From contig NZ_ANAX01000260.1 of NCBI RefSeq assembly GCF_000341065.1, positions 1,651-50,280 on the forward strand: a stretch of DNA of 48,630 nt, given 5' to 3'. Below the pieces are notes generated by a model. It made no database searches. It was not told where the DNA came from and saw only the letters and a program-made list of their open reading frames with translations. Shown in pieces: positions 21,025 to 47,577 of the stretch (its first letter is position 1; each line of letters begins with the position of its first letter). The DNA comes from Nocardiopsis halotolerans DSM 44410 (GTDB lineage Bacteria > Actinomycetota > Actinomycetes > Streptosporangiales > Streptosporangiaceae). The position numbers and the translations under genes are program-made.

Positions 21025-23109
<2,085 letters not shown>

Positions 23110-25712: not shown

Positions 25713-26645
25713 TCAGGGGCGGGCCCCGGACGGGAACAGGGGGGCCAGGACCCGGGCGACCTCCTCCACCCCTCTGGGCGGCCTGTCGCGAACCGCCGGG
25801 ACCTCACGCAGCAGGGCACTGCCGAGGCAGGTGTTCTCGGGTCGGGACGCGTACCTGCTCTCGGCCCGCGGCACGGCGCGCACGAGCGAACGCGGGGCCC
25901 CGAGCGCGTCGGCGATCGTTCCCGCCCACGCGGCCCGGCTCACCCGTTCGGGGCCTCCCAGGTGCAGAAGCGGGTGAGGGGGCGGGACACCCGGCTCCAG
26001 CAGCGCGCCGACTACCCGGGCCACGTCGTCCACGTGTACGGGGGTGGTCCACTGGTCCGTCGGCGCCAGCACCGTGCGCCCACGGGCAAGGCGGTGGGCA
26101 CACGCGGAGAAGAAGTTGAGCCACTTGTCCGTGTCCGGGGGCTCGTATCCGTACACGAGGCTGACCCGGAGCACGCTTCCGTCACGGGCGGCCGTGCGCA
26201 AAGCTCCCTCCGCGTTCGCCTTGGCCCTTCCGTATCCGCTGACCGGGCGGACGGGCGTCTCCTCCGTGGGATTTCGGTCGGTTCCGTCGAAGACGCTGTC
26301 CGTGGAGATGAGCAGCGGCCGGGTACCCGGGGCCGCGAGGGCGATGTTGGCGGTGATCGCCCCGTGGAGTGCCCGGGCCCGCGCCGGGTGCCGTGCGCAC
26401 CAGGTGGCGTCGGAGGGGCCGTGCACCAGGACGGTCCGGTCCGGAGCGAACCCCTCCGCCGTGCGCAGGCAGGCGTCCCGGTCCGTCGCGTCCAGGGGCA
26501 ACCACGTCCGGCTGGGGTACCGGGCCCCCTGGCGAGGGGGGCGCCGGGACGCGAGGGCGACGTTCCAGCCGTCGTCGGTGAGGGTGTCGGCGAGGGCGCG
26601 GCCGAGAAAACCGCTTCCCACGATCAGGGCCCGGGGTGTCGTCAT
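25713..26645 (-). CDS. RmlD-like NAD(P)-dependent sugar/cyclitol reductase (extended SDR)
   Basis: A 310-residue extended short-chain dehydrogenase. It has a Rossmann start RALIVGSGFLGRALADTL (GxGxxG), the active-site serine/threonine stretch PLLISTDSVFDGTDR and YGRAKANAEGALR with the Y-x3-K pair. The RmlD-type end is seen in WTTPVHVDDVARVVGALL and LLHLGGPERVSRAAWAGTIADAL. Normal RmlD reduces dTDP-4-keto-rhamnose. Here the neighbours are cyclitol genes and no RmlC is present, so reduction of a keto-cyclitol phosphate (the role of AcbL or AcbN in acarbose) is a plausible inference. It overlaps the ROK kinase gene by four bases and is the last gene of the 14-gene operon. Confidence 0.85.
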   Translation of the reverse strand: MTTPRALIVGSGFLGRALADTLTDDGWNVALASRRPPRQGARYPSRTWLPLDATDRDACLRTAEGFAPDRTVLVHGPSDATWCARHPARARALHGAITANIALAAPGTRPLLISTDSVFDGTDRNPTEETPVRPVSGYGRAKANAEGALRTAARDGSVLRVSLVYGYEPPDTDKWLNFFSACAHRLARGRTVLAPTDQWTTPVHVDDVARVVGALLEPGVPPPHPLLHLGGPERVSRAAWAGTIADALGAPRSLVRAVPRAESRYASRPENTCLGSALLREVPAVRDRPPRGVEEVARVLAPLFPSGARP

Positions 26646-27649
26646 CGCCTCTCCTCCAGGATCCTGGCCATGCCGACCAGCGAGTGGGCGTCGTCCTCAC
26701 AGCCGAGGGAGACCATGGTGCCGATCTCCGTCGTGTCGACCCCGAAGCAGCCCTGCCGGGACAGTTCCTCCACCAGGAGGTCGCGGTAGGGCTTCCCGAC
26801 CGCCAGGGCGAAACCGCCGATGATCACGTGGCGTCGCACCCCGGTGGAGGTGAACACCGCGCCGACGGCCGACGCGAGGTGGGCGAGGCTGTTCCGGAGG
26901 ATCCCCACGGAGAAGGGGTCGCCCGCGTGCACGGCCGTCACCAGGGCCGGGTTGTCGATGCTGTCGGGGCCTGACCGGCACAGGTCCCCCAGCCCGGACG
27001 AGGCGAAGGCCTCCGGCCGACGGGCCGCCTCCCCGCGTGCGGAGGCCAGCACACCGCGGCCGGAGGACAGGGCGCCGAGGTGTCCCCGCGCGCCGCAGTT
27101 GCACAGGGGCGCCTCGGCCGACGTGTCGCACACCCAGTGCCCCATCTCGCCTCCGTGGCCGTCCGGGTGCACCAGCACCCCGCCGTCGCGGAAGACCTTG
27201 TTGCCGATCCCCGAACTGACGGTCCACAGGCAGAACGGCTCCCGTTCGACGGCGGAGTAGCGCCAGGCCGCCGCCGTGAGGTCGTTGACCACCGTGACGG
27301 GGACCTGTAGCCGCTCCTCGACCAGCTCGCCCAGGGGGAGGGGGAGGCCTCCCTCCCCCCACACGGTCGGGGCGGCCGTGACCAGCCCGTCGGCGGTGAC
27401 GGGCCCGGCGAAGGCGATGCCGACCCGCTCCAGGGAACCCGGGCACAGCTCTCGCACCTCGTGGACGATCTGGTCCACGACGCGCTTCTGGAGGACGTCG
27501 ACGGGGGCGTGGGGGGCCGACTCCAGTCCCGCGGTGCGGACCCGGTGTACGCGGCTCGGCGGTCGGACGCCGTCGGTGCCGGTGGCCACGCGCAGGGTCG
27601 TGCCGCCCACGTCCACCACGGCGGTGCTGTCGGGATGAGGACTCATCAT
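26642..27649 (-). CDS. ROK-family kinase, likely C7-cyclitol kinase (AcbM/ValC-like)
   Basis: A 335-residue ROK kinase. The ATP-binding start is AVVDVGGTTLRVA, the catalytic aspartate lies in VTVVNDLTAAAWR, and HPDGHGGEMGHWVC precedes the zinc region CNCGARGHLGALSSGRG. The latter differs from the usual CxCGxxGCxE form: H and L replace the third cysteine and its follower. In acarbose and validamycin pathways, ROK/glucokinase-like enzymes (AcbM, ValC) phosphorylate 2-epi-5-epi-valiolone or another C7 cyclitol at O-7. Two genes upstream is the cyclase that would make the substrate. It overlaps the cupin gene and the reductase gene by ATGA. Glucokinase activity is the alternative. Confidence 0.87.
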   Translation of the reverse strand: MMSPHPDSTAVVDVGGTTLRVATGTDGVRPPSRVHRVRTAGLESAPHAPVDVLQKRVVDQIVHEVRELCPGSLERVGIAFAGPVTADGLVTAAPTVWGEGGLPLPLGELVEERLQVPVTVVNDLTAAAWRYSAVEREPFCLWTVSSGIGNKVFRDGGVLVHPDGHGGEMGHWVCDTSAEAPLCNCGARGHLGALSSGRGVLASARGEAARRPEAFASSGLGDLCRSGPDSIDNPALVTAVHAGDPFSVGILRNSLAHLASAVGAVFTSTGVRRHVIIGGFALAVGKPYRDLLVEELSRQGCFGVDTTEIGTMVSLGCEDDAHSLVGMARILEERR

Positions 27650-28023
27650 GTCCTTTCGGTGTGTTCCTCTGCCACGGCGACCTCGAAGACCAGGATCTCC
27701 AGGTCCTCGGTCCCGTCGTTGACCAGGCCGTGCTCCCCGAACGGGCGGTTGACGACCACGTCGCCGCGACCGACGCGCACGTCGGCTCCGTCGACGTGCA
27801 TCACCCCGCCGCCGCGCAGGACGACGTAGGTCTCCCGGTCGCTCCCGTGCCGGTGCCTGCCGATGGACACCCCTGGCGGCAGGACGGCCACGTCGATGTG
27901 CGTGACGGCACCGGCCGTCGGCGGCGCGGCGTGGAAGCGGTGTGCCAGGACGGTGCCCGCGCCGCCGTGGTCGTGCGGTTTCTCGCCGAGCAGGTCGCGG
28001 TGGAGGTTGCCGAACGCGTTCAC
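27646..28023 (-). CDS. Small cupin protein, possible cyclitol epimerase/isomerase
   Basis: A 125-residue single cupin barrel. The metal-binding motif is visible: GRHRHGSDRETYVVLRGGG (H-x-H-x4-E) and RPFGEHGLVNDG with the later histidine. Cupins of this size are often isomerases or metal-binding sugar proteins. It lies between the cyclase and the cyclitol kinase, with four-base overlaps on both sides (GTGA and ATGA). AcbO, the 2-epimerase of acarbose synthesis, has no recognisable homologue here, so this cupin is a candidate for that step. That is inference from position only. Confidence 0.85.
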   Translation of the reverse strand: MNAFGNLHRDLLGEKPHDHGGAGTVLAHRFHAAPPTAGAVTHIDVAVLPPGVSIGRHRHGSDRETYVVLRGGGVMHVDGADVRVGRGDVVVNRPFGEHGLVNDGTEDLEILVFEVAVAEEHTERT

Positions 28024-29228
28024 CGTGCCAACTCCCGTGCTCCGTTCGCGGCCTCGGCCGTTCCCCGTTCCTCCAGCTCGGCCAGGGCCGCCGTGAGGAG
28101 CCGCTCCGGTACGTCCTCGCGGTTCTCCAGGAAGGCGCCCGAGCCGAGGGCGGAGGGTACGACGAGGTTCAGACGGCCACCCCTGCGCTGCCAGGCGGTC
28201 CGCACCGCGTCCGCCATGAGTTCGGGGGTGCATGTGCTCCGGTCGTACAGGGGGAGCCCCAACCGCCTGATCAGGTCCAACGCGCGTTCGCACTCGTCCG
28301 CGCGGAGCAGCCCCAGGTGCCGGGCGATCAGGCAGGAGAGGGCCATGTCGACGGCGACGGCCTCCCCGTGCCTGAGGCGGTGCCCTCCGGCGGTCTCGAT
28401 CACCGGGCTGAACGTGTGGCCGAAGTCCACCAGCCGTGCGAGGTCGTGCTCCCGGAGGTTGGGGCACAACTGCTCCATCATGAGGCGCATGGACGCGCGC
28501 ATGACGCGGGTCTCGGTCTGACCGGCCGCGTCGCCGCGCAGGAACACGTCCGGGCACCGTTCCAGGGCCGTCAGGAGTTCGGGGTCCAGGACCATCGCCA
28601 GCTTCGCGATCTCCGCCAACCCGCACCTGATCTCGCGCTCGGGCAGACTCGCCAGCAGTCCCTGGTCGCACAGGGACGCGTGAGGCGGGTGGTAGGTGCC
28701 TAGCATGTTCTTCGCGCCCAAGGCGTTGACCCCGGTCTTGACCCCGACCCCGACGTCCACCTGGCCGACCAGGGTCGTGTTGACCCGGGCGTGGCGCACA
28801 CCCCGGGCGTACACGGACGCCGCGAAACCGACGACGTCCGCGAGGACGCCGCCGCCCACCGCCAGCATCACGCCGTTACGGTCGAGGCCGGACCGCCTGG
28901 CGACCTCGCACACCCGCTCGGCCGAGGCCAGAGTCTTGTTGCGCTCTCCCGTCGGCAGGACGGTGAGGCTCCAGTCCGAGGTGCCCATGTGCGTTCCGAG
29001 GTAGGTCCGCAGACGGTGGCCGTAGAGCCGCTCGACGTTCGGGCTGACGAACGCGACGGTCCTGCGCCCCTCCAGCCTCTCGGCCAGAAGGGTGTTCTCC
29101 GGCGCGAGGACGTCGTCCACCAGGTCCACCCGGTACGTCGTGCCGTCGGGGGCGAGCAGGTCGAAACCACCGGTGTCCTCACGGACCCCCGGCATGGTGT
29201 CACTCCGCACGGAGGAGGGAGTCAGCAT
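28020..29228 (-). CDS. Sedoheptulose-7-phosphate cyclase (2-epi-5-epi-valiolone synthase-like, AcbC/ValA type)
   Basis: A 402-residue dehydroquinate-synthase-superfamily enzyme. The NAD-binding region is MLAVGGGVLADVVGFAASVYARGV. KTGVNALGAKNMLGTYHPP is the cyclase-type loop, with the YHPP typical of sugar-phosphate cyclases rather than true dehydroquinate synthase. Zinc ligands appear as E205 (GLAE), H271 (DFGHTF) and H287 (RHGEA). It should turn sedoheptulose 7-phosphate into 2-epi-5-epi-valiolone, the C7 carbocycle of acarbose and validamycin. The exact subclass (EEVS, EVS or other) cannot be decided by eye. The ATG at 29228 has a GGAAGGAAAG site and lies inside the end of the glucanotransferase gene (29-base overlap). 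Confidence 0.9.
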   Translation of the reverse strand: MLTPSSVRSDTMPGVREDTGGFDLLAPDGTTYRVDLVDDVLAPENTLLAERLEGRRTVAFVSPNVERLYGHRLRTYLGTHMGTSDWSLTVLPTGERNKTLASAERVCEVARRSGLDRNGVMLAVGGGVLADVVGFAASVYARGVRHARVNTTLVGQVDVGVGVKTGVNALGAKNMLGTYHPPHASLCDQGLLASLPEREIRCGLAEIAKLAMVLDPELLTALERCPDVFLRGDAAGQTETRVMRASMRLMMEQLCPNLREHDLARLVDFGHTFSPVIETAGGHRLRHGEAVAVDMALSCLIARHLGLLRADECERALDLIRRLGLPLYDRSTCTPELMADAVRTAWQRRGGRLNLVVPSALGSGAFLENREDVPERLLTAALAELEERGTAEAANGARELAR

Positions 29229-31365
29229 CTCTTTCCTTCCCAACGCTGTGGGGATCGAGGTCGGCGAACACTTCGGCGATCCTCCGGAGGAGGGGCACCG
29301 AGGGAAGTTCGTCCAGCGGTACGGGGCGCCCCCGGGGATCGGCTACGGGCAGCCGCCAGTTGGGGTGGACGGTCGCGGTTCCCGGGAGATTCTGGGGTCT
29401 GCGGTCGCCGACCGCGTCGGGCAGCCAGACACCGAGCATCAGGGCCGGGGTCAGGCGCAGGAACCGGTGCAGCGCGAGCACCGCCTCCTCGTCGCCCACG
29501 TGGAGCGGTTCGGTGATCAGGCCCAGGCGCGACAGCTCCAGGAGCCAGGCGTCGCGTTCGGCCGCCGCGTCGGCGGCCTCCCGTTCCTCCGGCCGGGTGA
29601 GTAGCCCGAGTTCGGCGCGGATTCTGACGTGCTCTCCGCTCAGCCACGCCGCGGTCGTCGGCAGGTCGTGCGTGGTGAGCGTCGCGAGGCAGCGCCGACG
29701 CCACCGCTCGGGAGACAGCGGCCTTCGGTCCCGCTTCGCATGGTCCGCGAACTCGAAACGTTGGACGGAGGTGCCCAGGAAGCCCCGCCGGTCCAGTTCC
29801 TCGCCCACCCAGGGCTCGACCGTGCCGAGGTCCTCCCCGATCACACCCGCGTCGGCCCGGTGGGCCTCCAGCGCGAGCGCGCCGAGCATGCCCTCGTGGT
29901 CGTAGCGGACGTAGGTTCCCTCCGAGGGGCGACATCCCTGGGGGATCCACCAGAGCCGGAACAGGCCCATCACGTGGTCCACCCGTAGGGCGCCGGAGTG
30001 GCGCAGAGCGGAGCGCAGCAGCCCGGCGAACGGTTCGTAGGCGGCCTCGGCCAGAGCCTCCGGAAGCCAGGGGGGCTGGCCCCAGTCCTGCCCGTGGCGG
30101 TTGAAGTCGTCGGGCGGGGCGCCGACGCTCACCCCGGAGGCGATGCTCGCCTGCTCCATCCAGGTGTCCGCTCCCTCCGGGGCGACACCCACGGCCAGGT
30201 CGTGCACGAGTCCGACGCGCATGCCCGCGTCGAGGGCCCCGCGCTGCGCTCCGGCCAGCTGTTCGTCGGTGACCCACACCGCCCACATGTGGAAGTCGAC
30301 GCGCTCCCGCAGTGCCTCGCGGGCACGGGACACGGAGGGCGAACGCGGGTCGCGCAGCTCGGCGGGCCAGGAGCGCCACGCGCCGCCGTGCACCTCGGCC
30401 AGGGCGCACCAGGTCGCGAAGTCCTCCAGAGCCCCTCCCTCTGCGCGGGAGAACTCCCCGAACGCCTCCCCGCGAGCGGGTGTGCGCGCACGTGCCCGGT
30501 GGAGCAGCCGGAGGGCACGAAGCTTGCGGTCTCGTACGGTGCCGCGGTCGATGAGCGCGGAGCCGTCCAGCACCGCTGCGTTGTCGGCGCGTGCACGTGT
30601 GGCCAGGGCGTCGACCTCCTCGCGCTCGGCGGCGGAGAGGCTCCGGTACTCGGGGACGTCCTCCACACGGACGTGCATGGGGTCGGCGAAGCGACGGGAA
30701 CTCGGCCGGTATGGGGAGGGGTCGGCGAGCAGGCTCGGGTCGGTGGCGTGGAGCGGACCGAGCTGGACGAAGTCCGCGCCCAGGTCGGAGCCGGACCAGC
30801 GGGCCAGGGTGGTGAGGTCGGACAGGTCGCCCATCCCCCACGACCTCCGCGAGAGCAGGGAGTACAGCTGCACCGTGAGGCCCCAGGTACGCCGGTCCGG
30901 AACGCGGACGCGGTCGGGTACGGCCAGCAGGTGTCCGCTGGAGGCCGAGTCAGGACCCTGGACGCGCAGTCCGTGGCGTCCGTGGGGCAGCGGCCCAACG
31001 CCGTACCGGAGCCGCCCGGCTCGGTGCTCGGAACCGGAGGGCGCCAACTCGCGTCGGCCGCCGTCCTCCAACACGATCTCGCCGGAGGAACCCTCCGGCA
31101 GCCACAGGTACGGCTCCGTGTCCGAGGACTCCTCGGAGATCCGGACCACCGTGCACGCGGGCAGGAGGCGCTGGCGCAGCCTCGCGCGCCGGGCCTCCAG
31201 CGCGCCACGGGCCGCCCGTGGCGTGGAACCGTCCACCCCGCAGGCGGCCAGGACCGCCACCAGGGTGTCCGGGTGGACCTGTTGTCGTGCTCCCCGGTCG
31301 GTGGTGTAGGACGTGGCGACGCCGTGTTCCCGTGCCAGTTCGCGCAGGGGGTCGGTGGGGGCCAT
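29200..31365 (-). CDS. malQ: 4-alpha-glucanotransferase (amylomaltase, AcbQ-like)
   Basis: A 721-residue GH77 enzyme with the long N-terminal extension of actinobacterial MalQ. Core motifs are WGLTVQLYSLLSRRSWGMGDLSDL, GALRVDHVMGLFRLWWIPQG with the nucleophile aspartate, DAGVIGEDLGTVEPWV with the acid/base glutamate, LATLTTHDLPTTAAW with the third aspartate, and PNWRLPV. It transfers maltosyl units between alpha-1,4-glucans. In the acarbose cluster AcbQ is an amylomaltase thought to supply or reshape the malto-oligosaccharide acceptor. Its ATG shares one base with the stop of the GT-HAD gene. A housekeeping MalQ is possible, but its place inside the operon favours the pathway. Confidence 0.92.
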   Translation of the reverse strand: MAPTDPLRELAREHGVATSYTTDRGARQQVHPDTLVAVLAACGVDGSTPRAARGALEARRARLRQRLLPACTVVRISEESSDTEPYLWLPEGSSGEIVLEDGGRRELAPSGSEHRAGRLRYGVGPLPHGRHGLRVQGPDSASSGHLLAVPDRVRVPDRRTWGLTVQLYSLLSRRSWGMGDLSDLTTLARWSGSDLGADFVQLGPLHATDPSLLADPSPYRPSSRRFADPMHVRVEDVPEYRSLSAAEREEVDALATRARADNAAVLDGSALIDRGTVRDRKLRALRLLHRARARTPARGEAFGEFSRAEGGALEDFATWCALAEVHGGAWRSWPAELRDPRSPSVSRAREALRERVDFHMWAVWVTDEQLAGAQRGALDAGMRVGLVHDLAVGVAPEGADTWMEQASIASGVSVGAPPDDFNRHGQDWGQPPWLPEALAEAAYEPFAGLLRSALRHSGALRVDHVMGLFRLWWIPQGCRPSEGTYVRYDHEGMLGALALEAHRADAGVIGEDLGTVEPWVGEELDRRGFLGTSVQRFEFADHAKRDRRPLSPERWRRRCLATLTTHDLPTTAAWLSGEHVRIRAELGLLTRPEEREAADAAAERDAWLLELSRLGLITEPLHVGDEEAVLALHRFLRLTPALMLGVWLPDAVGDRRPQNLPGTATVHPNWRLPVADPRGRPVPLDELPSVPLLRRIAEVFADLDPHSVGKERDADSLLRAE

Positions 31366-34241
31366 CACTTGCCTTCCGCGTGGTGGTGGGGTGCGAAGAT
31401 CCACTCCAGGGCGACGGCCACGCCGTCCCGATCGTGGGCCGGGACCGTCTCGTCGGCGACGGCGAGGAGGTCCGGGTGCGCGTCGGCCACCGCCACGCCG
31501 TGGTCGGCCCACGCGAGCAGGGGGATGTCGTTGGGCATGTTCCCGAAGGCCACGGTGTGCTCGGGGCCGCACCCGAGCAGTTCGGCCGCGCGTGCCAGCC
31601 CCCGCGCCTTGTCGGTGCCGGAGGGCAGCAGTTCGACGATCCCGTGGTCCGAGTGGACGACGGACACCCTCCCCTCCGCGGCCCGTGTGGCCGCGTCGAC
31701 GACCTTCTCGTCCGCCACGTTGGGCTGTTGGAGCAGGACCTTGTCGATGGGCCGCTTCCAGAGGGAGGAGCGGTCGCGGGTGACCGACCAGCCGTGCCGG
31801 ATCCGGGGCCGGAAGCCACCGGTGACCACACACGATCCCTCCGGTGCGGCGGTGACGACCCCGAGTTCCATCTCCGGTTCCCCCAACAGGGTCTGGACGC
31901 CCTCCACCACGCTCCGCGCCAGGTCCCGGTCGAGCTCCGCCGAGAAGAGCAGTGCGTCTCGTGCGGCGTCGTAGAGCTGCGCCCCCTGGCCGCAGACCGC
32001 CAGTCCCCGGTAGCCGATGTCCCCGAAGAGCCGCCGGCAGGCCGAGGCCGGTCTGCCGGTGACCACCAGGTGGTGCGCGCCCGCCTCCGCGACCAGGGCG
32101 AGGGCCTTCCTGTTCCGGGGGGACAGCGAGCGGTCGTCCCGCAGGAGTGTTCCGTCGAGGTCGGTCGCGACCAGCCGGTAGGGCGGGACCGCGCGGGGGC
32201 GGCCCGCCCGCAGGGGGGCGGGAACGGACTCCCACTCGGTGCTTCCCGAACCCCGGGTCAGCAGTAGGACGAGGTGTCCGCCGGGCGGAGGGGTGACCGA
32301 CCCGTGGAAGAGCCCTTCCGAGTGCTCCAGGGGGACGAGCACGGGCGCGTTCGCGTCCGCGGGCACCGCCTCGTCCGAGGCCCGGGCCTCCGCCGCGGAC
32401 TGGCCCGGGGAACGGGGACCGCCGTCCTCCCCGGAGGAGGAGGCCACGGCCTCGACCCTCTCGACACCGGGGGCCTGGTACTCCACGTGGACGAGTCCGT
32501 CCGGCCCCCGCCTGGTCCGGCACCGGCGCGGTGCCATCCCCGTCTCCTCTCCGGGGTCCGTTGGCGCGGGGACCACCGGGGCCCTGGACGCCGTGACGGG
32601 AGCGGACGCACGCCGGGTGTCCCCCTCGAGGATCCGGGCGAACCCGTCGAGCCGGGTCCGCGCGCTGCGTTCCCAGGTGAAGGAACGGGCGGTGCTCCTG
32701 GCCCGGTCCGACAGGCGTTGGTACAGGTCCGGTTCCTCGCGCCAGACCCTCAGGGCCTCGCGGATCCGCGCGGTGAGCTCCCCTGTGAGGTCGGCGTCCC
32801 CGTCCCGGAACGAGCGGCGCACGGCGAAGCCCGTGGAGCGGGGGTCGTCGTGTGGGAGCGCGTGCCCGAAGTGGTCCGTGACCCGCTGGGCCGAACCGAT
32901 GGGTACGGACCCGCAGGCCATGGCCTCGGCCTGGGCGATGAGGAACCCGTCCAGCTCGTACTTGGACGGGTAGACGCAGAAGTCCGCGACGGCGGCGTGC
33001 CGGAAGAGAAGGTCCTCGTCGGCCAGTTCCCAGGTCAGGTGGACGTTGTCCGGATAGCGGTCGGCCACTCCCTGGAAGTGGGCGTTGGCCGGTTCGGCGC
33101 CGCGCGCGGCGGAGCCGGTGGAGCAACGGATGACGAAGTTGACGTCCCGGTCCTCGGCGAGCACGTTCTCCACCGCGCGCATCAGCTCCAGCTGCCCTTT
33201 GTGGTGCACGGCGTACCGGGAGGCGTGGTAGAACGTCGGGCGCCGGGGAGACAACCCCAGGGAACGCAGGACGTCGGCACGGTCCACCGCGCCGGGATCG
33301 CGTGCCAACCAGCTGTCGGAGACACCGCAGCCCCCGTCGAGCAGCCGCTCGGGCGAGTCCCGCAGGAGCCGGGAGACCGGCAGGCGGCGGAACAGGGGAT
33401 CGAAGGGCGACCCCTCGAAGCTGGTGAACCACTCCCGCTGGCCGGGCGAGACGAAGTCGACGAGGTCGGCGTGGGCGGCGACCAGGGGGAGGAACGCCAC
33501 GTGGTCGTCCCCGCGCCTCTCGTGCATTCTGGTCCCGGCCAGGGTGCGTTCCACGATGTCGTCCGGTGATCCGGGGACCGGAGGGACGGGTTCGAGGGCC
33601 GCCAGGTCCAGGCCGGTGACTCCGAAGGACTCCAGCAGACGTTCCACCTGGGGCCGGTACACGCTCTGCGTGATCGGGGCGTTGGCCGCCACGGTGCTCA
33701 CGGTGCGGCGCAGCGGGTCCCCGCCCCACACGAGCGGTAGCACGTAGTGGTAGAAGGGCTCGAACGCATGGACCACCGCGGGTTCCCCGGCGTGGAGCCA
33801 GTCGACGAACCGCACGCCCTCGGCCTGGAAGACCAGCGGCTTGCAGTACGCCAGGTCGCGCCCCTCGAAGGCGGGCGGCGGGTAGATCCGGTCCGGCAGG
33901 AGGTCCAGGAAGGAGTTCGAGAGCAGGTACACGTCGACACCGTCAACGCGGATCCCGTGAGCCCTGGTGGACAGCGGGAGCCCCATGTGCTCCGGGTGGT
34001 CCGGCCAGGTCCGCCGGTCCAGGACCAGCGGGAAATCGTGGTCGTGCCGGTAGTCGAGCTCCTCGACGCGGTGAGCGCTCCGGAGGGTGTCCAGGTGTCC
34101 GTGCGCGGGAGTGACCACGCTGACACGGTGTCCGGCTCCGGCGTACTCCCGTGCCAGGTTCCACACCAGGGGGGAGAGCCCGCCCCGCATCAGCCGGTGG
34201 TCGTAGCCACCGCACTCGAACGAGAAGAGCACGATGTTCAC
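31365..34241 (-). CDS. Glycosyltransferase (GT-B, glycogen-synthase-like) fused to a HAD-IIB phosphatase; AcbI/AcbS-like with AcbJ-like domain
   Basis: A 958-residue fusion. Residues 1 to about 545 are a GT-B enzyme: [29 protein letters not shown], then KPLVFQAEGVRF, VHAFEPFYHYVLPLVWGG, TFYHASRYAVHHKGQLELMRAV (donor side) and FCVYPSKYELDGFLIAQAEAMACGSVP. A linker with a small beta-domain follows (to about 690). Residues 691-958 are a Cof/HAD-IIB phosphatase: VATDLDGTLL with nucleophile D694, VVTGRP, a lysine region DKARGLARAAELL, and GNMPND (900-905), where the usual GD is GN. The GT part is homologous to the enzyme at 36290. The HAD domain may do the cyclitol-7-phosphate phosphatase step (AcbJ role). 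The start is a GTG overlapping the PfkB stop. Confidence 0.88.
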   Translation of the reverse strand: MNIVLFSFECGGYDHRLMRGGLSPLVWNLAREYAGAGHRVSVVTPAHGHLDTLRSAHRVEELDYRHDHDFPLVLDRRTWPDHPEHMGLPLSTRAHGIRVDGVDVYLLSNSFLDLLPDRIYPPPAFEGRDLAYCKPLVFQAEGVRFVDWLHAGEPAVVHAFEPFYHYVLPLVWGGDPLRRTVSTVAANAPITQSVYRPQVERLLESFGVTGLDLAALEPVPPVPGSPDDIVERTLAGTRMHERRGDDHVAFLPLVAAHADLVDFVSPGQREWFTSFEGSPFDPLFRRLPVSRLLRDSPERLLDGGCGVSDSWLARDPGAVDRADVLRSLGLSPRRPTFYHASRYAVHHKGQLELMRAVENVLAEDRDVNFVIRCSTGSAARGAEPANAHFQGVADRYPDNVHLTWELADEDLLFRHAAVADFCVYPSKYELDGFLIAQAEAMACGSVPIGSAQRVTDHFGHALPHDDPRSTGFAVRRSFRDGDADLTGELTARIREALRVWREEPDLYQRLSDRARSTARSFTWERSARTRLDGFARILEGDTRRASAPVTASRAPVVPAPTDPGEETGMAPRRCRTRRGPDGLVHVEYQAPGVERVEAVASSSGEDGGPRSPGQSAAEARASDEAVPADANAPVLVPLEHSEGLFHGSVTPPPGGHLVLLLTRGSGSTEWESVPAPLRAGRPRAVPPYRLVATDLDGTLLRDDRSLSPRNRKALALVAEAGAHHLVVTGRPASACRRLFGDIGYRGLAVCGQGAQLYDAARDALLFSAELDRDLARSVVEGVQTLLGEPEMELGVVTAAPEGSCVVTGGFRPRIRHGWSVTRDRSSLWKRPIDKVLLQQPNVADEKVVDAATRAAEGRVSVVHSDHGIVELLPSGTDKARGLARAAELLGCGPEHTVAFGNMPNDIPLLAWADHGVAVADAHPDLLAVADETVPAHDRDGVAVALEWIFAPHHHAEGK

Positions 34242-35176
34242 GGGCTCACCGCCCCGAGGAAGGCCGCGCGGGCCCGCTCCCCGGCCCCGCGCAGCACGGT
34301 CGGGTCCGCGAACTCCGCGTGGGTACCGGCGCTGCCGCAGGCGAACGCGCCCGCCACCGCCCCCGACAGGGCGCATTCACTGATCTCCCGGTCCTCCAGG
34401 TAGGAGTACAGGAACGCGGCGACGAAGGCGTCGCCCGCGCCGTTGCTGTCCACGACCGGGCGTTCGGGGGGCACGGCGGGGTAGTGCCGGGGGGTCGACT
34501 CCCCGCGCACCAGCACGTGGCAGCCCCGTTCCCCGTCGGTGGCGACGACGACCCGGGCCCGACCCCGGTCGATGACCTCGTGCAGTACCCGGTGGACGCG
34601 GTCGCGGATCGACGCGGCGCTGAGGAACACCAGGTCCGAGCGCAGCGCGTAGAAGAGGTGGTGCGGGTTCTGCCCGTCCCAGTCGTGCAGGTCCGTGGAA
34701 CTGCTGACGCCGAGCGACGCGATGTCCTCGTACATGTCCCTGTTGTGGCCGATGATGGACATGTGCACGTGCCGGGAGCGTTCCAGGTGGGGCAGGTAGA
34801 ACGTGCGGGGCAGGCGCAGGTCGGCCGGGTGGCGACCGTCGTAGAAGGAGAAGCGGCGCCCCTCGGCGTCCACCAGGTTGACTCCCCGGGGCGTGCCGTG
34901 CTCTGAGACGATCCGGCTGAAGTCCAGACCCGTCTCGGCGTAGGCGTCCAGGATCATCCGGCCCTGGGCGTCGTCCCCCAGGAAGTCGATGAACTTGGTG
35001 GACATCCCCAGCGTGTGGCAGCCGAGAGCCACCCCGTTCCCGGTGTGGGCGACGTAGTCGTACACCGGCGGGACGCCCGTGGAGTCACCCTCGGGAACCC
35101 TCAGCTCGTCGACGCGGACGATGGTGTCCACGCCCGCTCCTCCGGCGACCAGGACGTCGTACTCGGGCTCGTTCAT
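34238..35176 (-). CDS. PfkB-family carbohydrate kinase (AcbK-like, possible product 7-kinase)
   Basis: A 312-residue ribokinase-fold kinase. The N-terminal substrate region is [19 protein letters not shown] with [26 protein letters not shown]. The ATP and catalytic motif is [11 protein letters not shown] (241-251) with base D249. In acarbose producers AcbK is a PfkB-type enzyme that phosphorylates acarbose at O-7, taken as self-protection and carbohydrate recycling. The same gene type here sits between the nucleotidyltransferase and GT-HAD genes, with ATGA and GTGA overlaps. Other cyclitol or sugar substrates are possible. Confidence 0.88.
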
Positions 35177-39924: not shown

Positions 39925-39929
39925 CGGGC

Positions 39930-40727
39930 TCAACTCCCGGTCATCTCGTAGGTGGCGAGTCCCCGGTGCCACACGGTCAGGGAGACGGCGAGGGCCGCCG
40001 CCGTGACCACGGGTGTCCAGACGACCAGCCCGGCGTCGCCGGACAGCAGGTACGTGCAGGGGACGTAGGCGGTGAAGGCGAAGGGAAGGCACCACGTCGT
40101 GAAGGCGCGCATGACGGGGTGGAGGATCTCCAGCGGGTACGCGGCGAACTCCGAGATCTGGTTGGCCGCGTGCATGGCGGGGAAGCTCGTGACCGTCCAG
40201 AAGGACAGGGACGCGAACAGGAGCTTCACGGACATGTGGATGAGCGCCCCGAGGAACACGAGCACGGCGGCGGCCAGCCACTGTGCCGGAGTGAGCTCCA
40301 GGTCCAGATGGTGTCCCGCCCACGCGACCAGCGCCGCACCCACGAGCAGCTCCCCGAAGCCGTCGGGGTGGAAGAACCGCTCGGACAGCAGGGCGAACAG
40401 CGGGTTCACGGGACGAATGAGGTACCGGTAGAACTCGCCCTGCTGGACCAGGCGCCGGCCCAACTCCCACAACTGGTCCGTGAAGAGGCGGTCGAGGGAA
40501 CGCGGCAGCAGGGAGAAACCCAGGAGGAAGACCATCTCGTGCAGCGTCCAGCCGCCCACGGCCGGAGTGAACTGGAAGATCACGCCGACGACGGCGGTCT
40601 GCACGCCCACCCGGACCAGGAAGGCGCCGGCGCCCAGGGCGAAGTCCGCCCTGTAGGTCATCAGCCGCTGGAGCCCGATCCCGCCGAGGTACCAGGCCAG
40701 ACGCGCGTGGCGCAGGAACTCCCTCAT
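39930..40727 (-). CDS. ABC-2 type export permease (PF06182-like), second subunit (AcbY/X-like)
   Basis: A 265-residue membrane protein with about six spans. FHPDGFGELLVGAAL and the segment QQGEFYRYLIRPVNPLFALLSERFF are characteristic of the ABC2_membrane_6 family. With the next upstream permease and the ATPase it forms a heteromeric exporter. In acarbose clusters AcbWXY is a matching ATPase plus two permeases exporting the product. The start overlaps the stop of the first permease (ATGA). A pathway kinase follows. Confidence 0.9.
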   Translation of the reverse strand: MREFLRHARLAWYLGGIGLQRLMTYRADFALGAGAFLVRVGVQTAVVGVIFQFTPAVGGWTLHEMVFLLGFSLLPRSLDRLFTDQLWELGRRLVQQGEFYRYLIRPVNPLFALLSERFFHPDGFGELLVGAALVAWAGHHLDLELTPAQWLAAAVLVFLGALIHMSVKLLFASLSFWTVTSFPAMHAANQISEFAAYPLEILHPVMRAFTTWCLPFAFTAYVPCTYLLSGDAGLVVWTPVVTAAALAVSLTVWHRGLATYEMTGS

Positions 40728-41539
40728 CCGCCCAGCACCTCCAGGCGACGGACCGCGAACCGCCACACCAGCGCGGCGACCGCGCACATGACGGCCGTCC
40801 AGAGCAGCTGGAGGCCCAGGACCCCGAGGATCCCCGGGACTCCGTCGTACCGTCCCAGCAGCAGGGTCAGCGGGCTGTCGACCATCGTGTGGAAGGGGAG
40901 GAGGCGCGTCACCGCGGCGAGCGCGTCCGGCATCAGCCCGACGGGAACCATCTGTCCGGAGAAGAACGCCACCACGGTTTGCTTCATCAGCCGGATCCCC
41001 CAGGTGTTGGTGGTGACGAAGGCGGCCATGCCCACCAGGAGGTTGACCAGGTAGGCGACCGCCGCGGACAGCACGGCCGACACCGCGAACAGCAGGGCGT
41101 CGACGGGGCGGGGCACGTTGAGCGGAACCAGGAGGGCGAACAGCAGGAGGACGGGCAGACCGGCGAACAGCGCGTTGGTCCCGATGACCGGCAGGCAGGC
41201 GAAGGCCCTGACCGCCGGGTAGCTGACCGGCTTGAGCAGCATGGCCGCCACGTGGCCCCGGTAGACCTCGGCGGAGACCTCGTCGTCCACGCGGTTGGCG
41301 TGCAGGAGGCCGAGGATCTGGGCGACGAGCAGGTAGGTGGTGAGCTCCGCCGTGTCGAATCCCCCCGGCGGCCCGTCGGGTGAGCTGGAGTGGACCGCCC
41401 GCCACAGGAAGATCATCATCGCCGCGCTCGCGGCGGCCGTCACCGCCGAGATGGCGAACATCGAGCGGTAGCGCAGCAGGGACTGGAGGCTCCCGGTGAC
41501 GAACGGGGTGTAGCGGAAGGCCGGGCGTAGGGGGTTCAC
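40724..41539 (-). CDS. ABC-2 type export permease, first subunit (AcbX/Y-like)
   Basis: A 271-residue membrane protein with six predicted spans: YRSMFAISAVTAAASAAMMIFLW, VLLLFALLVPLNV, ALLFAVSAVLSAAVAYLVNLL, GMAAFVTTNTWGIRLMKQTVVAFFSGQMVPVGLMP and a final LLWTAVMCAVAALVWRF. It pairs with the permease at 39930 and the ATPase at 41536. The start is a GTG that overlaps the ATPase stop (GTGA); a longer reading to 41629 in the same frame encodes an unlikely basic leader. Confidence 0.88.
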   Translation of the reverse strand: MNPLRPAFRYTPFVTGSLQSLLRYRSMFAISAVTAAASAAMMIFLWRAVHSSSPDGPPGGFDTAELTTYLLVAQILGLLHANRVDDEVSAEVYRGHVAAMLLKPVSYPAVRAFACLPVIGTNALFAGLPVLLLFALLVPLNVPRPVDALLFAVSAVLSAAVAYLVNLLVGMAAFVTTNTWGIRLMKQTVVAFFSGQMVPVGLMPDALAAVTRLLPFHTMVDSPLTLLLGRYDGVPGILGVLGLQLLWTAVMCAVAALVWRFAVRRLEVLGG

Positions 41540-42558
41540 GCCGCCCCGCCCGGTGCGCGGCCCCGGTGTCCGTTCCGGGTGTAGAGCTCCTTGAGGACCG
41601 TGCCCAGGTCGGGCTCGGGCACATAGCACTCGGTCAGGTCGACGCGTTCCAGAAGGAAGGACAGGACCTCCCGGGACGAGAGCAGGCCGACCGGGTGGTC
41701 GATCCTCACCCGCTGGCCGTCCAGGCGTACCCGGGTCCCGGGGAGGGCGTGCTCCACCTCGGCGGCCACCGCCTCCGGGCTGGGGCCGCCCCGGTACTCG
41801 AAGATCACACAGCGCTGCCCCGCGGTGCTCAGCAGCTGGTCGATCCGCCCCTGGTAGATCACCCGCCCGTGGTCGACGACCAGGGCTGTGTCGCAGATGC
41901 TCGTGATGTCGGCGAGGTCGTGGCTGGTGAGGAGGACCGTCGTGCCGAGTTCCCGGTTGACCCGGTTGACCAGCTCACGGACCGCCTCCTGGAGGACCAT
42001 GTCGAGTCCGATGGTCGGTTCGTCCCAGAACAGCACCTCGGGGTCGTGCAGGAGGCTGGCCGCGATCTCGGCGCGCATCCGCTGGCCCAGACTGAGCTGG
42101 CGTACGGCGGTCGTCGCCAGCGCGTCGATGTCGAGCAGCTCCCGGAAGAGCCGGAGGTTGCGCTGGTACACAGCGTCGGGGATGTCGTGGATGCGGCGCA
42201 GGATACGGAAGGAGTCGGGAACGGACAGGTCCCACCAGAGCTGGCTGCGCTGCCCGAACACCACGCCGATCCGGCGGGCCGTGCGCCGACGGTTCCGGTA
42301 GGGCTCCAGACCGTTCACCAGGCAGTGCCCCGAGGTGGGCGTCATGACTCCGGTGAGCATCTTGACGGTCGTGGACTTTCCGGCGCCGTTGGCGCCCAGG
42401 TACGCCGTCCTGGAGCCCGCGGGGATATCGAAGGAGACGCCGTCGACGGCCCGGACGGTACGGTACCTGCGGGTGAGGAGCGTGCGCAGGCTCCCCGACA
42501 GACCTTCCTCGCGCTCGGGCACGCGGAACTCCTTGACGAGGTTCTCGACGACGATCAC
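41536..42558 (-). CDS. ABC exporter ATP-binding protein (AcbW-like)
   Basis: A 340-residue nucleotide-binding subunit. Walker A is AYLGANGAGKSTTVKML, the signature motif VRQLSLGQRMRAEIAASLL, Walker B EVLFWDEPTIGLD and the switch histidine LLTSHDL. The N-terminus EFRVPEREEGLSGSLRTLLTRRYRTVRAVDGVSF is typical of ATPases that partner PF06182-type permeases. It energises export of the cluster product, by analogy with AcbW. Its start overlaps the aminotransferase stop by four bases. Confidence 0.93.
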   Translation of the reverse strand: MIVVENLVKEFRVPEREEGLSGSLRTLLTRRYRTVRAVDGVSFDIPAGSRTAYLGANGAGKSTTVKMLTGVMTPTSGHCLVNGLEPYRNRRRTARRIGVVFGQRSQLWWDLSVPDSFRILRRIHDIPDAVYQRNLRLFRELLDIDALATTAVRQLSLGQRMRAEIAASLLHDPEVLFWDEPTIGLDMVLQEAVRELVNRVNRELGTTVLLTSHDLADITSICDTALVVDHGRVIYQGRIDQLLSTAGQRCVIFEYRGGPSPEAVAAEVEHALPGTRVRLDGQRVRIDHPVGLLSSREVLSFLLERVDLTECYVPEPDLGTVLKELYTRNGHRGRAPGGAA

Positions 42559-43907
42559 GCGCCCTCCACCCGTTCCAGGGCGCGTTCGAGGGAGTCCAGG
42601 GCCGAGTCCAGGGTCCCCTCGTCGATGTTCAGGGGCGGGCTGAGGCGGATCACGTGGCCGCCCAGGGCGGTCCGCACCCCCAGGTCGAGCGCGGCCCGGT
42701 AGACCTCGCGCGCGGTCTCGGGCGCGGGTTCACGCGAGGCGTGGCCGCGGACGAACTCCACCCCGTGGAGGAGACCGAGGCCCCGGACGTCCCCGACGCT
42801 GGGGAAGCGGTCCCGCATCCGGGTGAGCCGCTCGCCCACGACCGCGCCCAGCTCCTTCGCGCGTGCGGCCAGGGCCTCGCGTTCGACCACCCCGAGCGTG
42901 GCGGTCGCGGCGGCGACGCCCAGGGGGTTGCCGCCGTAGGTGGAGGCGTAGGCGCCGGGTTCGGAGGCCGCGGGGTGGTGCATGAGCTCCCGGGGACCGG
43001 CGAGCACGGAGAAGGGGAATCCGTTGGCGGTGCCCTTGGCCATGACGACCAGGTCCGGGCGCACACCGACCTCCTCGCTGGCGAGGAAGGAGCCGGTGCG
43101 GCCGCCCCCGGTGAGGACCTCGTCGGCGACCAGGAGGACGCCGTTGTCCCGGCAGGCCCGCGCCACCGTCTCCCAGTAGCCGGGGGGCGGCGTGATCACC
43201 CCGGCCGCGCCCTGGACGGGTTCGAAGACCAGCGCGGAGACGTTCGGCTTCTCGGCGATGTGGCGGCGTACGAGGGAGGCGCAGCGCAGCTCGCAGGAGG
43301 GGTGTTCGAGCTCCAGGGGGCACCGGTAGCAGTGGGGCGCGTACCCCAGCACGCTGTTCCCGGCGAAGGACTGGGTGCCGACGTCCCAGTGCACCAGCAT
43401 CCGCGCGCCCATGGTCTTGCCGTGGAAGCCGTGGCGCAGGGCGCCGATCCGGTTGCGTTCGGGCGGAGCGGTCCGCTGGACCAGGCGCAGGGCCGCCTCG
43501 ACGGCCTCGGCCCCGGTGGAGAAGAAGGCGTAGGTGTCGAGCTCGGAGGGCAGGAGCCGGGCCAGCAGCTCGCACAGCTCGGCCCTTTCCGGAAACGCCG
43601 AGTCGTGGACGTTCCACAGCCGCTGGGCCTGTGCGCTGAGGGCCTCGACGGTTTCGGGGTGGGCGTGCCCGAGCGACTGCGTGAGGGCTCCGGCGGCGAG
43701 GTCCACGTAGGTGCCACCGTCCATGTCGGTCAGCGTGGACCCGTTTCCGCTGGTGAAGACCCGACGGCCGAACGCGGCCTCGTCGGTGGCGCCGGGAGCG
43801 ACGTGCGCGCTCTCGCGCTCCAGCCACCGTTCCTGTTTTCCAAGGTCGGGGAATGAAAGACCTTGCAGTGCCTGGTCAGGGCTTTCCTCCTGGCTGGCCT
43901 CCTGCAT
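42555..43907 (-). CDS. Class III PLP-dependent aminotransferase (AcbV-like, dTDP-4-keto-6-deoxyglucose 4-aminotransferase candidate)
   Basis: A 450-residue fold-type I enzyme of the class III (GabT-like) group. Motifs are YVDLAAGALTQSLGHAHPETVEAL, FFSTGAEAVEAALRLVQR, GALRHGFHGKTMGARML, VLLVADEVLTGGGRTGSFLASE (PLP aspartate) and DLVVMAKGTANGFPFSVLAG (the Schiff-base lysine). Four cysteines in PHCYRCPLELEHPSCELRC may be structural or metal-binding; this insert is also seen in some other class III enzymes. AcbV, as I recall, is a class III enzyme making dTDP-4-amino-4,6-dideoxyglucose. The first gene of the operon, divergent from rmlA/rmlB, fits that role. Confidence 0.9.
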   Translation of the reverse strand: MQEASQEESPDQALQGLSFPDLGKQERWLERESAHVAPGATDEAAFGRRVFTSGNGSTLTDMDGGTYVDLAAGALTQSLGHAHPETVEALSAQAQRLWNVHDSAFPERAELCELLARLLPSELDTYAFFSTGAEAVEAALRLVQRTAPPERNRIGALRHGFHGKTMGARMLVHWDVGTQSFAGNSVLGYAPHCYRCPLELEHPSCELRCASLVRRHIAEKPNVSALVFEPVQGAAGVITPPPGYWETVARACRDNGVLLVADEVLTGGGRTGSFLASEEVGVRPDLVVMAKGTANGFPFSVLAGPRELMHHPAASEPGAYASTYGGNPLGVAAATATLGVVEREALAARAKELGAVVGERLTRMRDRFPSVGDVRGLGLLHGVEFVRGHASREPAPETAREVYRAALDLGVRTALGGHVIRLSPPLNIDEGTLDSALDSLERALERVEGA

Positions 43908-44160: not shown

Positions 44161-45228
44161 GTGAAGGCGCTCGTTCTTGCAGGTGGGACGGGAAGTCGCA
44201 TGCGTCCGTTCAGCCACACCACCGCCAAGCAGTTGCTGCCCGTCGCCAACGAACCGGTTCTTTTTCACGTTCTGGAAGCCGTGGCCCTGTCCGGCGTCAA
44301 GGACGTCGGAGTGGTCGTCGGGGCGACCAGCGGCCAGATACGGGAGGCCGTGGGGGACGGTTCGCGATTCGGTGTGAGCGTGACCTACCTCGACCAGCGG
44401 GAACCGCTCGGTATCGGCCACGCGGTCCACATTTCGAGGGGGTTTCTCGGGGACGAGGACTTCCTACTGTTCCTGGGGGACAACTACCTCGAAAAAGGCC
44501 TCATCGATTTCGTTTCCCGTGCAGGTCAGAGTGGTTTCGACGCGAACCTCCTCGTGCACGGGGTCACGGACCCCTCCCGTTTCGGCGTCGCCGAAATCGA
44601 CGGGCACGGCAGGGTGGTGCGCGTCGAGGAGAAACCCCCGAACCCGCGGAGCGACCTCGCGCTCGTGGGCGTCTACGCCTTCACGCCCGCCGTTCACGAA
44701 GCGGTGCGCTCCGTCCCCGTCTCCTCCCGGGGGGAACTGGAGATCACCGACGCCCTCCAGTGGATGATCGACCAAGGGCTGCCGGTGGGCGCCGAGCCCG
44801 TCACGGGGGCGTGGTGCGACGTGGGCGACGTCGATGACCTCCTCGGCGCGAACCGCGTCGCGCTGGGCGCCACGCGGGGGCTCATGGAGGGGGACATCGA
44901 CTCCGAGAGCACCGTCGTGGGTCCTGTCCACGTCGCCGAAGGGGCCGTGGTCCGCCGGTCGCACCTGCACGGCCCCGCCGTGATAGGCCCGGGGGCGGTC
45001 ATCGACGACTCCACCGTCGAGGGCTTCACCAGTATCGGAGCCGGGTGCGGGATCCGGGGCAGCCGCGTCGGCGCCTCGGTCGTCATGGCGGAGGCGTCCG
45101 TGGAGCGGGTGAACGCGCTGACGGGTTCGTTCCTGGGCCGGGGAGCCGTGGTCTCCGGCCCGTCCACGGGCGGGGGCGGACACCGTCTCGTCCTCGGCGA
45201 CCACAGCAGGGTGTGGCTGGCCTCATGA
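44161..45228 (+). CDS. rmlA: Glucose-1-phosphate thymidylyltransferase, long form (AcbA-like)
   Basis: A 355-residue dTDP-glucose synthase. The N-terminus KALVLAGGTGSRMRPFSHTTAKQLLPVANEPVLF is the nucleotide-binding loop; FLLFLGDNYLEKGL, VRVEEKPPNPRSD and GAWCDVGDVDDLLGANR follow. The last 90 residues form a left-handed beta-helix, which marks the long form also seen in StrD and AcbA and common in secondary metabolism. It makes dTDP-glucose for the 4,6-dehydratase 13 bases downstream. The GTG at 44161 is chosen because of GAGGAG seven bases before it; the open frame to 43711 overlaps the divergent gene. Confidence 0.94.
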   Translation: MKALVLAGGTGSRMRPFSHTTAKQLLPVANEPVLFHVLEAVALSGVKDVGVVVGATSGQIREAVGDGSRFGVSVTYLDQREPLGIGHAVHISRGFLGDEDFLLFLGDNYLEKGLIDFVSRAGQSGFDANLLVHGVTDPSRFGVAEIDGHGRVVRVEEKPPNPRSDLALVGVYAFTPAVHEAVRSVPVSSRGELEITDALQWMIDQGLPVGAEPVTGAWCDVGDVDDLLGANRVALGATRGLMEGDIDSESTVVGPVHVAEGAVVRRSHLHGPAVIGPGAVIDDSTVEGFTSIGAGCGIRGSRVGASVVMAEASVERVNALTGSFLGRGAVVSGPSTGGGGHRLVLGDHSRVWLAS

Positions 45229-45241
45229 GGAGGGACACCGA

Positions 45242-46195
45242 ATGAGAAGGGACACCGACACCACCCGGATCCTGGTGACCGGAGGCGCGGGTTTCATCGG
45301 CTCGGCCTACGTCGACGCCCTGCTCGGCCCCGGGGGGAACGGCCGCACGGCCGTCACCGTTCTGGACAGGCTCACCTACGCGGGCAGCACCGATCACCTG
45401 AGCGCCGTGTGGGACCATTCGGACTTCGCGTTCGTCCGGGGGTGCGTCTGCGACGCGGACCTCGTGGACGGTCTGGTGGCACGGCACGACCAGATCGTGA
45501 ACGTCGCAGCCGAATCCCACGTGGACCGCTCGATCCGGGACGGCGGCGCGTTCGTGCGCACCAACGTCCTCGGTACGCAGACCCTGCTCGACGCGGCCGT
45601 CCGCCACGGCGCGGAGCTCTTCCTCCAGGTCTCGACGGACGAGGTCTACGGTTCCCTGGCGGAGGGGGCCGCCGACGAGAACGCGGCGTTGCGCCCGAGT
45701 TCGCCCTACTCCGCGTCCAAGGCCTCCGCCGACCTGGTCGCCCTTTCCTATGCCCGCACCCACGGCCTGGACGTGCGCGTCACCCGCTGCGCGAACAACT
45801 TCGGGCCGCGCCAGTACCCGGAGAAACTCGTCCCGATCCTGCTGACCAGGCTCCTGGAGGGCGGGAACCTGCCGATCTACGGGGACGGGCGGCACACGCG
45901 CGACTGGTTGTACGTGGACGACCACGTTCGTGCGCTGGAGGCCGTACGCTCCTTCGGCGCTCCGGGCGAGGTCTACAACGTCGGCGGCACGGAGGCGATG
46001 ACCAACCTGGAGCTGGCGCGTCGGCTGATCGCCCGCTTCGGGACCGGCCGGGAGAGGATCGAGCACGTGCCGGACCGCAAGGGGCACGACCGGCGTTACG
46101 CGGTCGACGCGACGAAGATCTCCGAGGAACTGGGCTTTTGGCCCCGGGTGTCCTTCGAGGACGGCCTGAAACGCACCTTCGACTGGTATTGCTGA
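45242..46195 (+). CDS. rmlB: dTDP-glucose 4,6-dehydratase (AcbB-like)
   Basis: A 317-residue extended SDR. It has ILVTGGAGFIGSAYVDALL (NAD loop), VLDRLTYAGSTDHL, AAESHVDRSI, QVSTDEVYGSL (the Thr-Asp-Glu dehydration residues) and SPYSASKASADLVALSY (Tyr-x3-Lys), then RCANNFGPRQYPEKLVPILL. These are full RmlB signatures. The product, dTDP-4-keto-6-deoxyglucose, is the substrate expected for the aminotransferase at 42555. A GAGGGACACC ribosome site precedes the ATG. No RmlC is present, and the only RmlD-like gene lies 18 kb away at the cluster end, which argues against a simple rhamnose pathway. Confidence 0.95.
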   Translation: MRRDTDTTRILVTGGAGFIGSAYVDALLGPGGNGRTAVTVLDRLTYAGSTDHLSAVWDHSDFAFVRGCVCDADLVDGLVARHDQIVNVAAESHVDRSIRDGGAFVRTNVLGTQTLLDAAVRHGAELFLQVSTDEVYGSLAEGAADENAALRPSSPYSASKASADLVALSYARTHGLDVRVTRCANNFGPRQYPEKLVPILLTRLLEGGNLPIYGDGRHTRDWLYVDDHVRALEAVRSFGAPGEVYNVGGTEAMTNLELARRLIARFGTGRERIEHVPDRKGHDRRYAVDATKISEELGFWPRVSFEDGLKRTFDWYC

Positions 46196-47428: not shown

Positions 47429-47490
47429 GCCGCCGGTCCCCCCGGAAGCCCCACCGGGCTGGCCGGAACCGCATGGGTTCTGACCTGCGC

Positions 47491-47547: not shown

Positions 47548-47577
47548 CGGCGGACTGGGGCCTTTCCGGTCACCGCG

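Follow-up and report, generated by a model that had tools for sequence, protein, structure and literature searches.

Gene clusters for acarviosyl pseudo-oligosaccharides have been described in Actinoplanes and Streptomyces. In the acb cluster of Actinoplanes (strain SE50/110), AcbO, AcbL and AcbN perform epimerisation, dehydration and reduction (PMC7081202), and in acarbose synthesis AcbS has been tested as the pseudoglycosyltransferase and AcbI as the glycosyltransferase (GT) (PMC9200736). For the gac cluster of Streptomyces glaucescens GLA.O, which is responsible for acarbose, a 2026 genus survey gives the core A V W X Y U S R K I Q C J M O as a search list, which is not stated there as a gene order (PMC13240717). 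For the sct cluster of S. coelicoflavus, published for strain ZG0656 and responsible for acarviostatins, the table of a review lists a SctI of 1027 aa together with SctJ (138 aa, '2-epimerase') and SctO (324 aa, 'dehydratase'), and its text describes AcbO, AcbL and AcbN as lacking (PMC8234114). Related clusters are already known outside Streptomyces, nine genera being mentioned in PMC9200736, and low-similarity acarviostatin-related clusters are mentioned for Saccharomonospora (PMC7990883). In this study we analysed a window of 48,630 nucleotides from Nocardiopsis halotolerans DSM 44410 (contig NZ_ANAX01000260.1), in which positions 25713-46195 hold a further, divergent member of the gac/sct type. 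The cluster is real and intact, and its genes make it very probable that the product is acarbose or a close acarviosyl-maltose inhibitor.

An acarviosyl-type cluster with exactly these boundaries had been proposed in a first-pass annotation, and Pfam domains, trees and collinear loci all bear this out. The same annotation had considered the gene order, the fusion state and several missing genes to be new, and this part did not hold. When named genomes were scanned with a three-sequence alignment of such GTs, 56 loci were obtained. The window's run of rmlB and rmlA (B-A) on one strand and V, W, X, Y, U, GT1, R, K, GT2, HAD, Q, C, cupin and M on the other (15 genes, the GT-HAD fusion being written as two elements) recurs with identical order and strands in 18 loci, and 10 further loci from eight genomes differ solely in the absent PfkB kinase; all 28 belong to Streptomyces, the only other place in the scan where this exact layout was found. 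A short-chain dehydrogenase/reductase (SDR) gene sits beyond M in the window and in the gac-type loci, outside the 15-gene count. Since 15 of the 16 genes of the cluster, all except this SDR, are collinear and on the same strands in 18 other loci, a chance grouping is unlikely. The fusion of GT2 and HAD forms a single open reading frame in 28 of 28 gac-type loci; L020 and a fragment from S. glaucescens, L048, have it too. In the loci without PfkB (L011-L013, L018, L023, L027, L028, L041, L042 and L045) no AcbK-like kinase lies between R and the GT-HAD fusion, which may mark a different product or a different self-protection.

The published gac core list fits the window gene for gene, and fragment L048 from S. 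glaucescens NRRL B-2706 shows the GT1-R-K-GT2-HAD-Q order and the fusion of the window at 55-76% identity. The gac cluster is known here by this list and this fragment, and the window differs from it in the host lineage and in having no adjoining amylase genes. The sct table gives the window's genes in the same order, with a large fused SctI, the extra SctJ/SctO pair and close protein lengths; S. coelicoflavus NBRC 15399 (L029), a different strain from ZG0656, has the window order with 47-73% identity gene by gene. However, the sct cluster as published also comprises several amylases, importer genes, LacI-type regulators and a small amylase-inhibitor-like peptide (PMC8234114), and the amylases and importer are absent from the window contig. 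With the acb cluster, represented here by A. sandaracinus (L035/L090), the window has in common the reaction logic and homologous A, C, M, K, I, S, U, R, Q, V and W-Y, but the two traits that set the acb type apart are both missing from the window: AcbO, AcbL and AcbN were not found in it, and its HAD and GT parts, which are separate genes (acbI, acbJ) in Actinoplanes, are fused. The missing AcbO/L/N are no departure either, as they were also not found in the gac-type loci, where the cupin and the SDR stand in for them. The actual departures of the window, its host lineage and the lack of neighbouring amylases, do not appear in the first-pass annotation; the layout, from which a new inhibitor had been suggested, is already that of the gac/sct type and does not support such a suggestion.

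More distant relatives were seen as well. The S. griseofuscus-type clusters (L031-L034, L036-L038, L040 and L046) resemble the window in the core enzymes, the cupin and the RmlD-like SDR, but differ in gene order and have no GT-HAD fusion where a HAD match exists; among them L037 is truncated and lacks the SDR part, and L031 has its cupin just beyond the locus edge. These clusters could make a different pseudo-oligosaccharide. Open reading frames near L034 resemble, as judged by eye, a GMC oxidoreductase and a radical SAM protein. Further related clusters of the scan are in Actinoplanes, Hamadaea, Kitasatospora and Allokutzneria, none with the window's exact order. In a Bdellovibrionales metagenome-assembled genome (L049) the GT is accompanied by cyclase, nucleotidyltransferase, aminotransferase, ROK, PfkB and cupin homologues at 37-48% identity, which looks like an aminocyclitol-like cluster outside Actinomycetota. 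L054, L055 and L059 combine an AcbC-side cyclase with an AcbS/I-like GT, ROK, nucleotidyltransferase and RmlD-like SDR and show no AcbV-like aminotransferase match in the stretches compared; in L059 a distant cupin (34%) follows the cyclase.

The first-pass annotation had named phylogenies of the cyclase and of both GTs as checks, and both came out in favour of its assignment. The best Protein Data Bank match of the window cyclase is 4p53 ('Cyclase', 242 bits), which we take to be the validamycin enzyme ValA. Second, at 185 bits, comes 5tpr, whose deposited name is 3-dehydroquinate synthase but which is presumably a deoxygadusol-type cyclase; the other dehydroquinate synthases listed reach at most 160 bits. 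The window cyclase (GHTFSP), 4p53 and 5tpr have the SP pair in common, and two further aligned chains read GHTFGH. A second gene, AroB-like and named from this match alone, lies on another contig (G000:C288) and is 34% identical to the window cyclase. In the tree the window cyclase groups with 36 gac-type and S. griseofuscus-type cyclases (support 91/99), apart from two AroB-like rows and from Actinoplanes AcbC, to which it is only 39% identical. The sequence comparisons thus identify it as a 2-epi-5-epi-valiolone synthase-type enzyme and not a dehydroquinate synthase.

The GT tree was a quick one with 88 rows and support from the Shimodaira-Hasegawa-like approximate likelihood ratio test (SH-aLRT) only. 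GT1 (36290-38461) falls into a 42-row clade (support 98) with the first GT of the Actinoplanes cluster, the AcbS side, and within it groups with gac-type Streptomyces (31 rows, support 99). GT2, the N-terminal part of 31365-34241, joins the gac-type second GTs (30 rows, support 100), nested in a 34-row clade (support 95) that contains the second Actinoplanes GT, the AcbI side. Pairwise identities agree with this division: GT1 is 57% identical to Actinoplanes AcbS versus 43% to AcbI, and GT2 is 49% identical to AcbI versus 41% to AcbS.

Open reading frame and domain scans place 16 genes between 25713 and 46195. Only rmlA and rmlB are on the plus strand; the other 14 occupy the minus strand, from 43907 down to 25713. 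Given our choice of starts, neighbouring minus-strand genes overlap by a few bases at 12 of 13 junctions, a spacing that resembles a single operon. Gene identities and clades come from our analysis, published work shows the reactions for the Actinoplanes enzymes only (PMC9200736, PMC7081202), and we infer their transfer to the window as well as the cupin/SDR step. The C7-cyclitol cyclase (28020-29228, with a possible alternative start at 29243; Pfam DHQ_synthase fold) would convert sedoheptulose 7-phosphate into 2-epi-5-epi-valiolone, and the ROK cyclitol 7-kinase (AcbM/SctM-like, 26642-27649; Pfam ROK; 53-61% to the 28 gac-type loci, 28% to Actinoplanes AcbM) would phosphorylate this at C7. 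The cupin (27646-28023) and the RmlD-like SDR (25713-26645) would epimerise, dehydrate and reduce the product to valienol 7-phosphate, replacing AcbO, AcbL and AcbN. A 1-phosphate would then be added by the AcbU-like valienol-7-phosphate 1-kinase (38461-39924; 40-50% to the same-place gene in the 28 gac-type loci, 37% in Actinoplanes L035), for which no NCBIfam match was found at E <= 0.01 and, in the longer frame containing it, no Pfam match at E <= 0.001. Removal of the 7-phosphate is assigned to the putative C-terminal HAD phosphatase (Hydrolase_3) of the AcbI+AcbJ, SctI-like fusion (31365-34241; Pfam and tree), and the GlgC-like, AcbR-like nucleotidyltransferase (35173-36297; NTP_transferase, under the glgC cut-off; 66-71% to the 28 gac-type loci) would yield GDP-valienol.

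In a parallel branch, the AcbA-like glucose-1-phosphate thymidylyltransferase RmlA (44161-45228, plus strand; NTP_transferase, rmlA_long above cut-off; 55-58%), the AcbB-like dTDP-glucose 4,6-dehydratase RmlB (45242-46195, plus strand; RmlB-type dehydratase in Pfam, dTDP_gluc_dehyt above cut-off; 62-71%) and the AcbV-like class III dTDP-4-keto-6-deoxyglucose 4-aminotransferase (42555-43907; Aminotran_3; 67-72%) would make dTDP-4-amino-4,6-dideoxyglucose. The amino sugar would be joined to maltose by the AcbI-like half of the fusion, and the AcbS-clade pseudoglycosyltransferase GT1, like GT2 a GT-B protein, would form the C-N bond with GDP-valienol. The AcbK-like acarbose 7-kinase (34238-35176; PfkB, scored on a longer frame; 69-74% to the 18 gac-type loci having it in the run) probably keeps the product phosphorylated inside the cell, and export would fall to the ABC-2 system of an AcbW-like ATPase (41536-42558; ABC_tran; 69-72%) and the AcbX-like (40724-41539; ABC2_membrane_6, scored on a frame 90 bases longer; 60-67%) and AcbY-like permeases (39930-40727; ABC2_membrane_6, scored on a longer frame; 64-75% to the 28 gac-type loci). 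All the A, B, V and W, X, Y genes were thus found by Pfam/NCBIfam and locus comparison. The remaining gene encodes an AcbQ-like GH77 amylomaltase (29222-31368; Glyco_hydro_77, malQ above cut-off; 60-65% to the 28 gac-type loci). The earlier domain calls were reproduced with Pfam and their mapping onto AcbC, M, R, U, J, A, B, V, I/S, K, Q and WXY is supported; the gene list had, however, left out the cupin and the SDR, the very genes that mark the gac/sct sub-type.

These two genes deserve a closer look. The SDR matches Pfam RmlD_sub_bind, scores 98.9 bits against an RmlD equivalog cut-off of 224 and has Tyr138 and Lys142 invariant in a 23-row alignment; the cupin, of the metal type with a single domain (Cupin_2, scored on a longer frame), has four metal-ligand positions, His57, His59, Glu64 and His98, invariant in a 38-row alignment. 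Fold predictions, made with 22 of the 38 cupin rows and 19 of the 23 SDR rows, gave pLDDT (predicted local distance difference test) values of 88.6 and 90.2, respectively. The predicted cupin fold is closest to 1o4t and then to other cupins including phosphomannose isomerases and the lyase DddK, and the SDR fold is closest to MAT2B and RmlD reductases. The modelled features fit a metal-assisted alpha-proton chemistry followed by NAD(P)H reduction. How the work is divided we infer as follows: the cupin, in the SctJ position, is likely the 2-epimerase and possibly a dehydratase too, and the SDR, in the SctO position, is likely the valienone-7-phosphate reductase and/or dehydratase.

The distribution of the genes is in line with a replacement. 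With tblastn at E <= 1e-6, homologues of AcbO, AcbL and AcbN gave no match in the window or L062 and none in any of the gac-type Streptomyces loci; among the locus stretches compared they occur only in Actinoplanes L035 and L090 and in Actinacidiphila L047. Whole-genome searches, which covered 40 of 43 loci, found an RmlD-like gene in 38 of 40 genomes (E <= 1e-15), the two without it being the Actinoplanes and Actinacidiphila genomes that bear AcbO/L/N, and a cupin in 34 of 40 (E <= 1e-8). At this threshold no cupin was found in Actinoplanes, Actinacidiphila, S. glaucescens (a fragmented assembly) and the genomes of L052, L054 and L056, so that the SDR can occur without a close cupin. In gac-type genomes both matches adjoin the cluster, except at contig breaks. 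That SctJ is the cupin follows from its size, its place and L029 and is not stated in the review; that a cupin/SDR pair replaces AcbO/L/N is, as far as the review's table and text go, already a published proposal (PMC8234114). Among the matches listed, literature searches on 2-epi-5-epi-valiolone with cupin or epimerase gave no cyclitol paper, and those on gacJ/gacO/gacM/gacI gave streptococcal or unrelated work only.

A speculative extension, which we regard as improbable, would be that the gac-type route needs two enzymes against three in the acb route: one metal cupin, with one ketone-activating metal, would do both alpha-proton steps (the C2 epimerisation and the elimination of the C5 hydroxyl through C6), and the RmlD-like SDR would then turn valienone 7-phosphate into valienol 7-phosphate by reduction; the inhibitor would, moreover, have no adjoining amylase or importer of its own in this host, and would thus be purely excreted and not serve as a recycled carbon carrier.

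The surroundings set the window apart. The 28 gac-type loci come from 26 genomes, of which we examined 21, one (S. coelicoflavus) being the source of the query proteins. Each of these 21 Streptomyces clusters has one or more sct-related GH13 amylases (E <= 1e-30) within 20 kb upstream of rmlB; importer genes (HFG) were seen near 8 of the 21 in the stretch examined. Adjacent amylases are hence a usual though not strictly defining companion of the gac/sct type and the importer is a variable one. The genome measures 6.26 Mb, and the contig that carries the cluster, C260, has 72,552 bases. A genome-wide search for the amylase family listed 13 matches, none on C260; other GH13 genes are located elsewhere in the genome, one of them, on C280, being 38% identical to an sct-type amylase. 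Neighbours of the cluster include a GH43 gene, two aldo-keto reductases, a regulator, an alpha/beta hydrolase and a siderophore gene.

With regard to history, the GT1 search across 345 genomes of the host's order (in which a cluster without a recognisable GT1 would escape) gave matches only in the window genome and in G045 of the same family; the latter has the GT and no cyclase, nucleotidyltransferase or cupin match in 19 kb, and as its contig ends about 1.6 kb past the GT, more may be present. Literature on acarbose with Nocardiopsis, Streptosporangiaceae or Actinomadura showed no such cluster among the matches listed. A FastTree analysis of ten protein sets, joined from the 16 genes for 31 loci (25 of the 28 gac-type), placed the window beside the 25 gac-type Streptomyces loci as their sister (the group of 26 having a local support of 0.996), with 62-66% identity over the ten proteins. 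L012 and L013, from the same strain as L011, were dropped from trees and residue counts, and L031 was also left out of the reference lists. Taken together, identity and sister placement suggest a divergent lineage rather than recent copying from any Streptomyces cluster sampled.

On the left, synteny with some congeners extends to a tRNA-Pro (21025-21099; region 20950-21145), and the cluster lies beyond it in a less conserved stretch. Integration at this tRNA was considered, and since no duplicated tRNA end was found on the contig no attachment (att) site is claimed. An empty site in congeners was not defined either: in G089 the left and right neighbours fall on separate contigs, and in G094 1.67 Mb lies between them. 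Two other observations concern the flanks: an erythromycin esterase family gene (17620-18924) near a TetR regulator (15264-15920) and an MFS transporter (13650-15185), and a stretch of about 75-110 bases (47469-47576) that recurs elsewhere in the genome and in congeners at 80-93% identity, i.e. a dispersed repeat.

Several points weigh against an assignment to acarbose or a near relative. The window cyclase is long-branched and no strongly supported group of half the rows or fewer contains it; both window GT rows were flagged as long-branched as well, and with such branches an altered specificity is a possibility to be reckoned with. No sct-related amylase and no importer were found anywhere on the 72,552-base contig, and the extracellular side of the known lifestyle is accordingly not supported; for this strain the product is predicted from the genes only. 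The same machinery might accordingly be imagined to make a new acarviosyl product with another acceptor sugar or chain length, its enzymes having diverged and no dedicated extracellular amylase being there to extend or trim it. The distance to the 25 Streptomyces loci, beside which the window branches, and the missing amylases would suit this idea; however, the cyclase and both GTs stay in gac-type clades and Pfam scans showed no extra tailoring gene between 25713 and 46195, and we hold a new product to be rather unlikely. Presence in one of 345 genomes of the order and the absence of amylases and importer from the contig could also be read as signs of a silent or decaying island that was inherited and is no longer expressed. 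This seems quite unlikely, as the reading frames of all 16 genes are intact, third-position GC is high wherever a frame was scored, and six window proteins checked retain the residues invariant in their relatives, among them DxDGT of the HAD domain, GGxGxR of the nucleotidyltransferase and Lys291 of the aminotransferase. The last of these is presumably the lysine that binds pyridoxal phosphate.

Two further explanations can be rejected. Within the order, the cluster was seen in none of the other genomes searched, as might be the case if Streptomyces DNA had contaminated the assembly, but flanking genes on the same contig match congeneric genomes at up to 90% DNA identity and the cluster itself is too distant from the Streptomyces loci of the joined tree (62-66%), which makes contamination highly implausible. 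We give practically no credence to ordinary glycogen/trehalose and dehydroquinate genes lying side by side: generic Pfam/NCBIfam names (GlgA-like, GlgC-like, AroB-like, MalQ) and a malQ score above its cut-off invite this idea, yet the glgC, glgA and aroB scores remain under equivalog or subfamily cut-offs, a separate AroB-like gene exists on G000:C288, and the trees put the cyclase and the GTs with acarviosyl clusters.

In conclusion, as a gac/sct-type member the N. halotolerans cluster brings the gac-type drug pathway into a bacterial order where, among 345 genomes searched, no other shows it. Its divergent enzymes provide an outgroup to the Streptomyces gac clusters, and residues common to both are candidates for catalysis. 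The window is one more small gene set with which the replacement of AcbO/L/N by a cupin and an SDR might be tested. As an inhibitor cluster without a neighbouring amylase array, it also offers a natural case that bears on the debate between 'carbophore' and 'competitive exclusion'.

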